The position numbers were made by a program, and so were the translations under genes. The notes beneath the pieces were generated by a model. That model was not told the DNA's origin and searched no databases. It worked only from the letters and a program-made list of their open reading frames with translations. A DNA stretch of 64,000 nt from assembly GCA_913062815.1 (NCBI GenBank), contig CAJXWZ010000009.1:62001-126000 (forward strand), read 5' to 3'. This DNA comes from an uncultured Colwellia sp. (GTDB lineage Bacteria; Pseudomonadota; Gammaproteobacteria; Enterobacterales; Alteromonadaceae). Of the stretch, positions 34,746 through 44,275 are shown in pieces (within the stretch, counting starts at the first letter, position 1; each line of letters opens with the position of its first letter).

Positions 34746-35981
34746 TTATACCGCTTGGGCTTGAGTCAACACTGCTTGAAATAATATATCACAACCTGCT
34801 GCTATGTCTTCTGGCGCCGCATTTTCTGCTTCATTATGGCTAATACCATTTTCACATGGCACAAACACCATCGCCGTTGGCGCAACCCTTGAGATATAAC
34901 AAGCATCATGTCCTGCACCACTAATGATGTCTTGGTAACTATAACCAGAGCTGGCAGCAGCAGCTCTTATTGAGTCAACACAAGACTGATCAAATTTAAT
35001 TGCTGGTGAATACCAAATTTCTTCAAACTCCATCACTAAACCGAGATCATCAGTAATTCTTTTACAAAGCTCTTGTAATTTTAAACCCATATTTCGTAAT
35101 ACTTGGTTGTTCGGGTGACGAAAATCAATCGTGAAAAATACTTCGCCAGGAATAACATTACGTGAATTTGGAAAAACATTGAGTAATCCAACGGTTGCAC
35201 AAGCATATGGTTTATTTTCTGTACCAATTTGATTCACAAGGTCGATTATCTTTGCTGCCCCCACTAAAGCATCTTTTCGGATGTGCATCGGCGTTGGGCC
35301 GGCGTGAGACTCTACGCCTGTCAATTTCACTTCATACCAGCGCTGCCCCTGTGCACCAGTCACTACACCAATAGTTTTTCCTTCATCCTCTAATATAGGA
35401 CCTTGTTCAATATGTGCCTCAAAAAAAGCTTTGACCTCTCGGCCGCCGACTTGATGTTCACCATTATATCCAATACGCTCAAGTTCTTGCCCCATCGTTA
35501 AACCGTTTAAATCTGCTCGACTTAAACCATAATCAAGATCAAATACACCAGAAAAAACACCTGAAGCCACCATTGCAGGAGGGAATCGAGAGCCTTCCTC
35601 ATTGGTCCAAACTGAAGCTTCGACTGGATGCAAGGTTTCAATGTTATGATCATTAAGACTTCTTATAACTTCTAAGCCAGATAATACCCCATAGATTCCA
35701 TCAAACTTACCACCTGTAGGTTGTGTATCTAAATGACTGCCCATAACAACAGCTGGCAAACTGTCATCTTGACCAGCACGGCGAGCAAATATATTCCCCA
35801 TTTTATCGATTTTAATGGTGCAATTTTGCTCTTCACACCAAGTAACAAAAAGATCTCTGGCCTCTTTATCTAAATCAGTTAGCGCTAAACGGCAAACGCC
35901 ACCCTTCTCAGTTGCCCCGATAAGTGCCATATCCATCAGGCTTTGCCACAACCTTTCACCATTAATTTTTGTTGCTGTCAT
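34746..35981 (-). CDS. Zn-dependent N-carbamoyl-beta-amino-acid hydrolase (beta-ureidopropionase type)
   Basis: M20-family amidohydrolase (411 aa) of the HyuC/AmaB/allantoate amidohydrolase group. Metal and substrate motifs are GSHLDTQPTGGKFDGIYGV, WTNEEGSRFPPAM, FFEAHIEQGP, SHAGPTPM, and the C-terminal GAGHDA and ENGISHNEAE. It would hydrolyse N-carbamoyl-beta-alanine or N-carbamoyl-3-aminoisobutyrate to the amino acid, CO2 and ammonia. It is the last gene of the minus-strand run from cofG, separated from the LLM gene by a terminator-like hairpin. Allantoate or N-carbamoyl-L-amino acid use is possible by sequence alone, but context favours pyrimidines. Confidence 0.88.
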   Translation of the reverse strand: MTATKINGERLWQSLMDMALIGATEKGGVCRLALTDLDKEARDLFVTWCEEQNCTIKIDKMGNIFARRAGQDDSLPAVVMGSHLDTQPTGGKFDGIYGVLSGLEVIRSLNDHNIETLHPVEASVWTNEEGSRFPPAMVASGVFSGVFDLDYGLSRADLNGLTMGQELERIGYNGEHQVGGREVKAFFEAHIEQGPILEDEGKTIGVVTGAQGQRWYEVKLTGVESHAGPTPMHIRKDALVGAAKIIDLVNQIGTENKPYACATVGLLNVFPNSRNVIPGEVFFTIDFRHPNNQVLRNMGLKLQELCKRITDDLGLVMEFEEIWYSPAIKFDQSCVDSIRAAAASSGYSYQDIISGAGHDACYISRVAPTAMVFVPCENGISHNEAENAAPEDIAAGCDILFQAVLTQAQAV

Positions 35982-36004
35982 CTTTATTCTCTATTTTGCA
36001 AAAT

Positions 36005-36041
36005 GAAAAAAACGATGAGTAACATTGCTGTTAGTCATCGT
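36005..36041 (-). terminator. terminator between LLM oxidoreductase and amidohydrolase genes
   Basis: On the minus strand: ACGATGA / TCATCGT (36012-36041), the stem extended by four more pairs after one mismatch, followed by a T run. It may attenuate expression of the last gene. Confidence 0.7.
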
Positions 36042-36054
36042 CTATTATTACGAT

Positions 36055-37059
36055 TTACTTAGTAAAAAGTGGAATAATATGCTTACCGTATTCATCAATA
36101 ATCAGTTCTTCGTCACCACTATCTAAATAAATATTAAATTGCGTGGTGCCAACCTCTTCTAGTTCTTTTAATTTGGCAATGTGTTGATCTACATTACCCA
36201 ATACACTAAAACTTTCCACTACATCATTAGTAATAAAATCCAAGTAAGGATTATCGCTTTGGCCATGTTTTGAATAATCATAACCACGACGTTTTTCGAT
36301 ATAAGAAGTTAAGCTCTTCGGTACAAAATCTGATTCAGCACCATATTTTTCCACAATATCTGCAACATGATTACCAACCATCGCAGGGAACCATTTAGTT
36401 TGTTCAATACAGTAATCCATATCACCAACATAAGCGGGTGCTGAAGCGATAATTTCGTAATTTGACATGTCACGGCCTGCTGCTTCGCCAGCTGAAATTG
36501 CTTGCTCAGCGAACCATTTAACTAATTGTGGTTCTGCTATTTGTAAGACCACACCATCGCCACATTCACCCGCTGTTTTAAGTGCTTTTGGACCATAAGC
36601 ACCAATATATATGGGTAACTCATAACCATTTGCCCATGGAAACTTAACAGCCTCAGGGCTTTCACCGTATTGAACTTCTTCACCACGTACCATGGCTTTA
36701 ACTTTGGTAGTAAATTCTGCAACACGTGCTAAATTTGCGGGCTTTTTACCCATAACACGCATGGCACTGTCACCACGACCTAAGCCAACATGAAAGCGAC
36801 CATTGCTTTGTAGCGCTAAACTGGCAAATAAACTTGCCGCGACTGACCAATCTCTAGAGTTTGGGTTTGTTACACAAGGACCAAAACTCATTTTCGAGGT
36901 GTGCTCCATACACATTGCTATTGCGGGGTAACATTCACGCCATAAAACGTGAGAGTCATAAAACCAGCAATGAGTAAAGCCAGCAGCTTCGGCTTGTTTA
37001 ACTAGACTACGTGCTCTATCCGGGCTAACAAAGCCTTTAAAAGTAATACCAAATTTCAT
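36055..37059 (-). CDS. F420-dependent LLM-class oxidoreductase (TIGR03842-like)
   Basis: 334-aa luciferase-like-monooxygenase-fold enzyme close to methylene-tetrahydromethanopterin reductase: MKFGITFKGF, FTHCWFYDSHVLWRECYPAIAMCMEHTSKMSFGPCVTNP, and FHVGLGRGDSAMRVMGKKPA are typical of the F420-dependent branch. I take it for the TIGR03842 (CPS_4043) family, whose function is recorded as unknown. It is encoded with all F420 genes and with dihydropyrimidinase, beta-ureidopropionase, aminotransferase and MmsA, while no dihydropyrimidine dehydrogenase gene is present. I infer that it reduces uracil or thymine with F420H2. RutA, which opens uracil oxidatively, is also an LLM-fold enzyme, so an oxidative role is a less likely alternative. 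Confidence 0.88.
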   Translation of the reverse strand: MKFGITFKGFVSPDRARSLVKQAEAAGFTHCWFYDSHVLWRECYPAIAMCMEHTSKMSFGPCVTNPNSRDWSVAASLFASLALQSNGRFHVGLGRGDSAMRVMGKKPANLARVAEFTTKVKAMVRGEEVQYGESPEAVKFPWANGYELPIYIGAYGPKALKTAGECGDGVVLQIAEPQLVKWFAEQAISAGEAAGRDMSNYEIIASAPAYVGDMDYCIEQTKWFPAMVGNHVADIVEKYGAESDFVPKSLTSYIEKRRGYDYSKHGQSDNPYLDFITNDVVESFSVLGNVDQHIAKLKELEEVGTTQFNIYLDSGDEELIIDEYGKHIIPLFTK

Positions 37060-37113
37060 TTTATTCTCCTATTGTAATTATTGTTCAATCAATGATTGTT
37101 TATGTTAACTATG

Positions 37114-42631: not shown

Positions 42632-42664
42632 CTTCAGATTATCAACTTTTAAATAGATGTACCA

Positions 42665-42696
42665 GCATTATTTTGACCATACGGTCAAAATAATGC
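42665..42696. promoter_or_regulatory. 32-bp perfect inverted repeat containing a RutR-like core
   Basis: Arms GCATTATTTTGACC and GGTCAAAATAATGC with a 4-bp spacer ATAC. The core TGACC-N4-GGTCA is the RutR-like site; the flanking nine bases of each arm also match exactly. The centre-to-centre distance to the site at 42616 is 57 bp. Confidence 0.82.
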
Positions 42697-42782
42697 CAAA
42701 ACAAAAACCTTAAAGGTAAGGACCTGTAATTTATAAAGATTAAATATTAGGTCGCTAGGCTAAATAACTAATGAAATGAAAT

Positions 42783-42817
42783 AAACAGTGAATAAGCATA
42801 AAACTAAGCCACTGTTT
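42783..42817 (-). terminator. hairpin after dihydropyrimidinase gene
   Basis: AAACAGTG / CACTGTTT with a 19-nt loop, followed on the minus strand by a T-rich stretch, 19 bp beyond the stop. Confidence 0.5.
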
Positions 42818-42835
42818 CAAAGAAAAAAATGAAAA

Positions 42836-44275
42836 TTAACGCTTCACTGCTGCAGGCTTATGAAAATCTGCATAGGTTTTCGTGGCATTAAATGCTTGGC
42901 TAAACGCTGGACGTTTGACGTATTTTCCTGCGCCCATTTCTGCCCGTAAATCGCCATCTACCCATACCAACTTTCCGCCACTTAAGGTATGGGATGGAAC
43001 GCCTTTAACGGTTCGGCCTTCAAAAATATTAAAGTCAATATTGTGATGGTGTGTTTTGGCCGATATGGTTCTACTACCCTCAGGATCCCAAACAACTATA
43101 TCAGCATCTGCCCCAACAGATATTGCCCCTTTACGAGGGTAGATATTGAATATTTGTGCCGCATTTGTTGAGGTTGCTGCGACAAATTCATTCATGGTTA
43201 ACCGACCACTATTAACACCGGCATCCCATAAAACGGCCATTCGGTCTTCAATTCCTGCTGTTCCATTTGGGATCAGGCTAAAATCATCTTTGCCAACAGC
43301 TTTTTGTTCATTACAAAAACAGCAATGATCCGTTGCCGTAGTTTGCAAATTGCCGCTTTGCAGTCCTTGCCAAAGGGCATCTTGATGTTTTGATTCTCTA
43401 AAGGGAGGACTCATTACATGTGCCGCGGCAAATTCAAAATCACTATTACGATAAACACTATCATCGATAAGCAAATGACCCGCTAAACATTCGCCATAAA
43501 CGCGCTGACCTTCATTCCTTGCTTTGGTAATTGCATCTAATGCGTCCTTGCAAGATACATGGACAACATAAATTGGTACATTCAGCACTTGTGCAATTTG
43601 AATTGCACGATTAGTTGCTTCACCTTCCACTGCCGGTGGACGAGATAGTGGGTGCCCTTCTGGCCCTGTAATCCCTTGAGCAAGCATTTGTTGTTGCAAT
43701 TGAAAAACGAGTTCGCCATTTTCCGCATGAACGGTAGGTATTGCTCCTAGTTCTATACAGCGACGAAAACTATTAACTAATATTTCGTCATCAGCCATAA
43801 TGGCGTTTTTATAGGCCATAAAATGCTTAAAGCTATTGATACCATGCTTGGTTACCAATTCTCCCATATCACGCTTGACTGACTCATCCCACCAAGTTAC
43901 TGCCACATGGAACGAATAATCGGCAGCCGATTTTTTCGCCCACCCTTGCCACTGATGATATGCATCCATTAATGGTTGTTGCGGCGATGGTATAACAAAA
44001 TCTATGATGCTGGTTGTTCCTCCAGCAAGACCTGCTGCGGTCCCTGTATAAAAATCTTCAGTTGAAACTGTGCCCATAAAGGGCAATTGCATGTGAGTGT
44101 GTGGGTCTATACCCCCCGGCATAACATATTGCCCGCTTGCATCAACAACTTCTGTTCCCAAAGGCACTTCAATATCAACACCTATGCTTTTGATGAGGCC
44201 ATCATGACAATATACATCTGCTTTAAAACTAGTATCGGCATTCACAACCGTACCGCCACGAATCACAATAGACAT
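42836..44275 (-). CDS. dihydropyrimidinase (D-hydantoinase family)
   Basis: Binuclear-zinc amidohydrolase (479 aa) opening dihydrouracil or dihydrothymine to N-carbamoyl-beta-amino acids. Metal ligands are visible: [14 protein letters not shown], the carbamylated Lys150 in [22 protein letters not shown] and TDHCCF. C-terminal motifs such as [18 protein letters not shown] fit the family. It ends 252 bp before cofG with an intervening hairpin and operators, so it has its own promoter, divergent from the NCS1 permease. Hydantoin is the other family substrate; the neighbours favour dihydropyrimidines. Confidence 0.93.

Follow-up and report, generated by a model that had tools for sequence, protein, structure and literature searches.

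A putative F420H2-dependent thymine/uracil reductase in a pyrimidine-degradation locus of an uncultured Colwellia

The F420 block and its flanking genes

The window described here is a stretch of 64,000 nucleotides from an uncultured Colwellia sp. (GCA_913062815.1; contig CAJXWZ010000009.1, here C9, positions 62001-126000), whose assembly comprises 5.15 Mb in 70 contigs and is 94% complete. It carries a gene set for the rare redox cofactor F420 together with an oxidoreductase of the luciferase-like monooxygenase (LLM) class and genes of reductive pyrimidine degradation. Eight minus-strand genes (34746-42583) form one tight unit in the order cofG, cofH, cofD, cofC, cofE, npdG, LLM and amidohydrolase; neighbouring genes overlap by 1-4 bp throughout cofG to npdG, with gaps of 54 bp between npdG and LLM and 73 bp between LLM and the amidohydrolase. 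The gene context and the comparisons given below argue strongly that the LLM, a member of TIGR03842, is an F420H2-dependent thymine/uracil reductase within a reductive pyrimidine-degradation regulon and a non-homologous alternative to PreT-PreA; this is considered very likely.

Gene families were called by curated profile models, with scores given as bits/cut-off.

34746-35981, minus strand: candidate N-carbamoyl-beta-amino-acid amidohydrolase of the hydantoinase/carbamoylase family (TIGR01879 427/204; NF006769 also over its cut-off)
36055-37059, minus strand: LLM oxidoreductase, proposed F420H2-dependent thymine/uracil reductase (TIGR03842 498.6/295.45)
37114-37815, minus strand: npdG, NADPH:F420 oxidoreductase for F420H2 supply (TIGR01915 193.6/149.8)
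37812-38579, minus strand: cofE (TIGR01916 267/181)
38579-39196, minus strand: cofC (TIGR03552 148/105)
39193-40164, minus strand: cofD (TIGR01819 273/257)
40161-41438, minus strand: cofH (TIGR03551 512/374)
41438-42583, minus strand: cofG (TIGR03550 472/213)
42836-44275, minus strand: dihydropyrimidinase (TIGR02033 606.7/393)
44529-46037, plus strand: NCS1 nucleobase permease (TIGR00800 318, under the cut-off of 353)
31561-32892, minus strand: AptA omega-aminotransferase, proposed for beta-alanine/3-aminoisobutyrate (NF052567 701/500)
30013-31506, minus strand: MmsA, CoA-acylating methylmalonate-semialdehyde dehydrogenase (TIGR01722 655/448.5)
33024-33962, plus strand: LysR-family regulator (no equivalog over its cut-off among the 25 models shown)

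The dihydropyrimidinase gene lies 252 bp upstream of cofG on the same strand, with the NCS1 permease gene divergent from it, and beyond the opposite end of the block stand AptA, MmsA, the LysR regulator, which adjoins AptA in several relatives as well, and two RutR-like TetR regulators. The initial annotation had described this arrangement, and its account holds: all F420 genes and npdG score over the cut-offs of their curated models, and the flanking genes are present, with NCS1 and the RutR-like proteins falling short of theirs. The single LLM that it noted is also the only one genome-wide (one PF00296 match, in an assembly 94% complete).

In the proposed pathway, CofG, CofH, CofD, CofC and CofE would make F420, NpdG would reduce it with NADPH, and the LLM would use F420H2 to reduce the C5-C6 double bond in thymine, uracil or both. 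Dihydropyrimidinase would then open the ring, the amidohydrolase would take off the carbamoyl group, AptA would transaminate 3-aminoisobutyrate/beta-alanine, and MmsA would yield propionyl-CoA/acetyl-CoA, with propionyl-CoA arising from thymine.

Co-occurrence across genomes

TIGR03842 (F420_CPS_4043), of which the window LLM is a clear member, is an NCBIfam hypothetical equivalog whose name gives no function. A search of genome contigs gave 592 confirmed LLM relatives, the best 80 of which were taken as loci (labelled mostly Gammaproteobacteria, Alphaproteobacteria and Chloroflexota; up to 10 kb on each side, often less). The window's genome, G214 and the genomes of 50 of these loci, isolates preferred, constitute the 52 LLM genomes. 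Dihydropyrimidinase is over its cut-off in 51 of the 52, the sole miss being a metagenome-assembled genome (MAG) labelled Deltaproteobacteria with an LLM 48% identical; PreA is over its cut-off in eight, three of them Leisingera-like, and RutA in one. Paracoccus denitrificans DSM 413 (L069, G271) is among the carriers with no PreA over the cut-off, and it shows no RutA at E<=1e-60. A survey of the LLM family against dihydropyrimidinase and PydA had been proposed in the initial annotation, and its outcome, together with the RutR-type operators described below, supports the proposed tie between F420 and pyrimidine use.

For the window's order, 247 genomes were searched. The LLM is over its cut-off in two of them, with 44 others having only weak matches to other LLMs, and cofD occurs in exactly the same two genomes. 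F420 genes are reportedly mentioned in the genome paper of Colwellia psychrerythraea 34H. Dihydropyrimidinase was found in 28 and PreA in 19 of the 247, both scored on the six best candidates per genome. The LLM is also rare in sampled Alphaproteobacteria (4/289 genomes, centre genome included).

Dihydropyrimidinase occurs in 51/52 LLM genomes vs 26/245 genomes without LLM in the order (Fisher p ~1e-36), and PreA among dihydropyrimidinase carriers in 8/51 with LLM vs 17/26 without (Fisher p 2e-5). Two dihydropyrimidinases over the cut-off are present in 7/8 genomes with both reductases vs 6/43 with LLM only (Fisher p 1e-4). These p-values overstate the evidence because the samples are phylogenetically non-independent, the LLM set comes from top matches and the background was scored on the six best candidates per genome; more weight attaches to the recurrence of the pattern in distant groups.

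Three RutA homologues over the cut-off were observed on the cofD contig of an LLM carrier, Poseidonocella G279 (L090).

An F420 LLM was recently proposed as the yanthine reductase of the reductive uric acid pathway in Chloroflexota, a pathway that likewise uses a HyuA-type hydrolase, according to the available part of that 2025 paper (PMC12507026). The same role for the window LLM would fit the occurrence of SsnA at E<=1e-60 in seven of the 52 LLM genomes (six over the cut-off), but no SsnA was found at that threshold in the remaining 45, among them the genome of the window. Furthermore, the neighbours of SsnA in G290, G291 and G295 are npdG-cofE-cofD-cofC and another LLM, which shares 25-32% identity with that of the window in the aligned part; these clusters lie on other contigs than the TIGR02033 dihydropyrimidinase, which adjoins the TIGR03842 LLM. 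The SsnA survey and the three SsnA loci examined led to the rejection of this role, which is regarded as highly improbable.

The SsnA loci (L136, L137 and L138) belong to two Chloroflexota and one genome labelled Pleurocapsa, possibly mislabelled, and match the F420 variant that has been proposed for the reductive uric acid pathway.

RutR-type operators

The site scan used the RutR consensus known from E. coli work. The following sites and regulators were predicted in the window.

42616-42631, plus strand: predicted RutR-type operator upstream of cofG, palindrome TTGACCATATGGTCAA (0 mismatches)
42673-42688, plus strand: second predicted RutR-type operator upstream of cofG (1 mismatch)
44401-44416, plus strand: RutR-like palindrome TTTACCAAGTGGTAAA between dihydropyrimidinase and NCS1 (2 mismatches to the consensus, exact to the TTTACC variant)
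26972-26987, plus strand: predicted RutR-type operator in the gap of the divergent deoC and acsA genes (1 mismatch)
34050-34700, plus strand: RutR-like TetR regulator (TIGR03613 198/368; NF011584 184.5/230)
29304-29948, plus strand: second RutR-like TetR regulator (TIGR03613 172/368; NF011584 145.9/230)

Both TetR regulators score under both RutR cut-offs. If up to 3 mismatches are allowed, the window holds 18 RutR-type sites where 3.4 would be expected, and both cofG operators fall inside the 252 bp upstream of cofG. In G214, Alteromonas and Thalassolituus (L041, L060, L061), cofG is likewise preceded by the TTTACCAAGTGGTAAA form. Among the 78 of 80 relative loci with enough DNA, a site (<=3 mismatches) precedes 29/36 cofG heads vs 58/1062 other upstream regions of the same loci. 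The 42 loci without cofG have such a site upstream of the LLM in nine, all of them Devosia-type (9/9 of that type).

A one-mismatch RutR-type site also lies upstream of preT on contig C1 of the same genome. Because sites of this type stand upstream of both, F420 synthesis and PreTA seem to belong to a single pyrimidine regulon, and the block may be controlled by the RutR-like proteins.

Gene neighbourhoods in relatives

Within the 80 loci, dihydropyrimidinase (at least 38% identity) was found in 37 and the amidohydrolase (at least 50%) in 29, so that 44 have either one; all six F420 genes are present in 36, and PreA in none. In the Chloroflexota locus L106, the order is aminotransferase, MmsA, nitrilase-type amidase, LLM and dihydropyrimidinase, and the LLM lies within an otherwise complete reductive pyrimidine set. 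Similarly, L087 reads nitrilase-type amidase, dihydropyrimidinase, LLM and aminotransferase, and L096 reads NCS1, dihydropyrimidinase, LLM and AptA. In these other groups the pathway is thus assembled around the LLM from different partners. The nitrilase-type proteins match the AguB model under its cut-off. For comparison, the preA locus of Burkholderia pyrrocinia has genes for a Zn-dependent hydrolase and, at the place of PreT, for an NAD(P)-dependent oxidoreductase, along with preA, NCS1, hydA and NupC; in this comparison the LLM occupies the slot of PreTA.

Plasmids carry related loci. In the one Streptomyces locus examined, a plasmid has dihydropyrimidinase adjoining an LLM 41% identical to that of the window, and a further plasmid search gave no other close locus of the Streptomyces type. 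Two of 10 matching Leisingera plasmids were examined, and both have a cof-npdG-LLM module with the PntAB transhydrogenase, which could feed NADPH to NpdG. A Paracoccus alcaliphilus plasmid has the genes from cofG to LLM, with no dihydropyrimidinase in the stretch shown.

The plasmid-borne module was observed at L035, L036 and L037 (Leisingera and P. alcaliphilus). On a Caballeronia plasmid (L039:10001-10384), a piece of the LLM gene (residues 204-331) lies beside an amidohydrolase and pieces of a transhydrogenase, which suggests a module copy in decay. L067, labelled Nocardioides marinus DP1N28-1, has a Leisingera-like locus (PntA 80% and TetR 92% to Leisingera) and is probably mislabelled or contaminated.

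F420 supply in relatives

With a threshold of E 1e-30, cofD was detected in 44 of the 52 LLM genomes, 43 of them over the cut-off. The eight without it are seven Devosia and one Pelagibacterium; together with one further Hyphomicrobiales MAG, these give nine Devosia-type loci (L072, L079, L083, L084, L086, L088, L094, L099 and L116). A putative F420-0 ATP-binding cassette (ABC) transporter and a CofE-like protein stand beside the LLM in 9/9, the transporter call being based on NCBIfam hypothetical-equivalog names scanned in L088 only, and an F420-dependent glucose-6-phosphate dehydrogenase (Fgd) is encoded in 8/9. On the simplest reading, Devosia-type carriers may scavenge F420-0.

A wider proposal is considered probable: TIGR03842 would be a separate class of dihydropyrimidine dehydrogenase, using F420H2 and free of iron-sulphur (Fe-S) clusters, and the main reason why F420 is made in many Proteobacteria. 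Together with the cof genes and npdG it would spread as a self-contained module, on plasmids too and mostly under RutR-type control, with cofD-less Devosia-type bacteria importing F420-0 to run it.

A second pyrimidine locus in the genome

On contig C1, a gene for PreA (NF006183 691.5/335) immediately follows that of a GltD-like oxidoreductase, which takes the place of PreT and is over no listed model's cut-off. The flanking genes encode another dihydropyrimidinase and another NCS1-type permease; no RutA was found genome-wide at E<=1e-60. Reductive pyrimidine degradation thus has two parallel loci in this genome, centred on PreTA and on the F420 block respectively. The active-site loop reads AVGQ in this PreA and in Burkholderia PreA vs ACGQ in pig dihydropyrimidine dehydrogenase; a search by DNA gave no E. 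coli match for this comparison. Since the Colwellia and Burkholderia proteins agree, the loop is not taken as a defect.

This locus bears on the initial annotation, according to which no PydA, PreTA or Rut genes were visible and the LLM supplied the missing reduction before dihydropyrimidinase. The former is correct for the window and incorrect for the genome. The argument from a missing step fails, as PreA and a PreT-like partner are encoded in the genome along with a dihydropyrimidinase and an NCS1 of their own, and a genomic dihydropyrimidine dehydrogenase, named there as evidence against the proposal, is present at the sequence level. The proposed reduction itself is well supported by comparison. 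As the step is not missing in this organism, the role of the LLM has to be judged from its relatives, and with PreTA in the genome it may be used here for another base or under other conditions. It would more probably run in parallel with PreTA, perhaps on thymine, than provide the sole route.

Alternatively, PreT-PreA could be the real pyrimidine reductase, the LLM using F420 for another step of the regulon, on a cyclic ureide such as hydantoin or on a semialdehyde. The presence of a PreA with a Burkholderia-like loop, in an operon that shares the operator type of the block, is consistent with this. However, 44/52 LLM genomes lack PreA over the cut-off with dihydropyrimidinase in 51/52, and in L106, L087 and L096 the LLM is surrounded by other pathway enzymes with no PreA, which makes this alternative unlikely.

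Several points weigh against a role of the LLM as pyrimidine reductase. The reductase step is already encoded here by PreA and its partner. Matches to PreA below the cut-off occur in four PreA-negative genomes (G247 at 219 bits; G273, G276 and G282 at 142-149 bits), and G214 has a RutA-like protein below the cut-off (265 bits). No RutR-like site is seen upstream of the LLM in 33 of the 42 loci without cofG. The 80 loci are related and come from best-scoring matches, the background counts of dihydropyrimidinase and PreA in the 247 genomes come from the six best candidates per genome, and dihydropyrimidinases can act on hydantoins too. In addition, 36/80 loci have neither hydrolase at the thresholds used, some of them being short contigs. 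Within the DNA covered, this last count would also suit a mere co-location of F420 and pyrimidine genes by chance, a reading opposed by the co-occurrence in 51/52 genomes of several phyla and by the shared operator-like sites, and therefore given almost no credence.

The LLM protein

The LLM is predicted to use F420, an indirect assignment from its linkage to F420 genes and its Mer-like fold. At E<=1e-3, it matches 19 models, all LLM, with TIGR03612 (RutA) not among them. Its structure, predicted from 38 aligned sequences (pLDDT 88.5, pTM 0.88), is nearest to F420-dependent Mer (TM 0.81, E 9e-25), followed by Fgd2, Adf and luciferase, and among solved structures Mer is the closest in sequence and fold. 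The viral collection gave one weak match (33% over 55 residues).

Glu6 of Mer has a catalytic role and is mutated in PDB 8qq8 (E6Q). Its equivalent is Thr, Cys or Val in five aligned LLM-family sequences, so the chemistry of the LLM probably differs from that of Mer. The near-invariant polar residues include D35, H37, N65, R69, R95, D97, R101, Y155, N230 and H231. In the proposed reaction, F420H2 would donate a hydride from its C5 to the C6 position of the base, whose own C5 would take up a proton from an acid.

The thymidine-scavenging island

The remainder of the window reads largely as a DNA/thymidine-scavenging island on the far side of AptA/MmsA, which also includes a TonB-dependent receptor.

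27266-29209, plus strand: AcsA acetate-CoA ligase (TIGR02188, over cut-off)
25812-26849, minus strand: DeoC (TIGR00126, over cut-off)
23401-25785, minus strand: aldehyde dehydrogenase of 794 aa with two aldehyde dehydrogenase stretches, adjoining deoC (under equivalog cut-offs)
20783-22000, minus strand: NupC nucleoside transporter (TIGR00804, over cut-off)
19780-20565, minus strand: S1/P1 nuclease (PF02265)
18327-19553, plus strand: DeoB phosphopentomutase (TIGR01696, over cut-off)
16975-18291, plus strand: DeoA thymidine phosphorylase, proposed thymine source (TIGR02643, over cut-off)
14299-16110, minus strand: endonuclease I with LTD and PKD domains, export predicted as likely (PF04231)
7050-9491, minus strand: endonuclease I with PKD domain, export predicted as likely (PF04231)

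RutR-like sites (<=3 mismatches) were observed in gaps of the island (7050-29209) at 9749-10087, 16233, 16623 and 26972.

DNA would be broken down to thymidine, and thymidine to thymine and deoxyribose phosphate, the latter yielding acetyl-CoA; thymine here would probably come from DNA and thymidine through the nucleases, NupC and DeoA. Because the rest of the window is largely such an island, thymine is a likely natural substrate of the LLM route.

Where both reductases are present, labour may be divided, the LLM being thymine-specific (or suited to oxic conditions, without Fe-S clusters) and PreTA uracil-specific, both as true pyrimidine reductases. This refines the reading of the LLM as a thymine/uracil reductase and is not opposed to it. 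The company of the LLM locus (DeoA, DeoB, NupC, DeoC and MmsA), the dihydropyrimidinase and NCS1 belonging to the PreTA locus, and the two dihydropyrimidinases in seven of eight genomes holding both reductases are in favour of such a division. However, the Burkholderia preA locus has NupC too, and MmsA may serve malonate semialdehyde from uracil as well; the division is plausible, at somewhat less than an even chance.

F420 in Proteobacteria and Chloroflexi

In the part of a 2021 review that was available, the reason why Proteobacteria and Chloroflexi make F420 is listed as unanswered, and no F420H2-dependent reductase had then been studied experimentally in bacteria outside actinobacteria (PMC8498797). 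Since then, the structure of a Chloroflexota F420-dependent glucose-6-phosphate dehydrogenase has been solved (PDB 9hav). In C. psychrerythraea 34H, genes for an allantoate amidohydrolase and an F420 reductase with nearby locus tags are both cerulenin-induced, as given in the available portion of the report (PMC4744452), and their tag numbers suggest that they flank this LLM. The accessible text of a RutR regulon paper contains no mention of F420 (PMC5343134), and among the matches listed from openly licensed literature, seen in part, none was found to describe a catabolic uracil/thymine reductase that depends on F420.

If correct, the proposed role would provide a specific job for F420 in bacteria where none was known, a function for the TIGR03842 family and one more way of starting the breakdown of uracil and thymine. 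F420 would then be expected to be inducible by pyrimidines, which would fit the trace amounts reported for Paracoccus denitrificans in the part of the review consulted (PMC8498797).

Comparison with known systems

A putative F420/FMN oxidoreductase is required for reducing the uracil C5-C6 bond of mureidomycins, as described from genetic and nuclear magnetic resonance work in the available part of the source; this system (SSGG-03002/NpsU, mureidomycin/napsamycin) belongs to antibiotic biosynthesis, and in vitro activity was not obtained by the authors (PMC10714638).

Mer is F420-dependent with a like fold, from which the LLM differs by a Mer score under the cut-off (129.7 bits vs 348.7) and by residue 6. 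RutA also belongs to the LLM superfamily and acts on uracil, but as a ring-opening FMN monooxygenase; the window LLM has no TIGR03612 match.

PreT-PreA/PydA fills the same pathway slot as that proposed for the LLM. PreTA uses NAD(P)H with Fe-S clusters and flavin, and its PreA has a dihydroorotate-dehydrogenase fold (NF006183, with ferredoxin domain). The LLM, in contrast, matches only LLM models, its predicted structure resembles Mer, Fgd, Adf and luciferases and not PreTA/PydA, and it would represent an unrelated single-chain luciferase/Mer fold with predicted use of F420H2.

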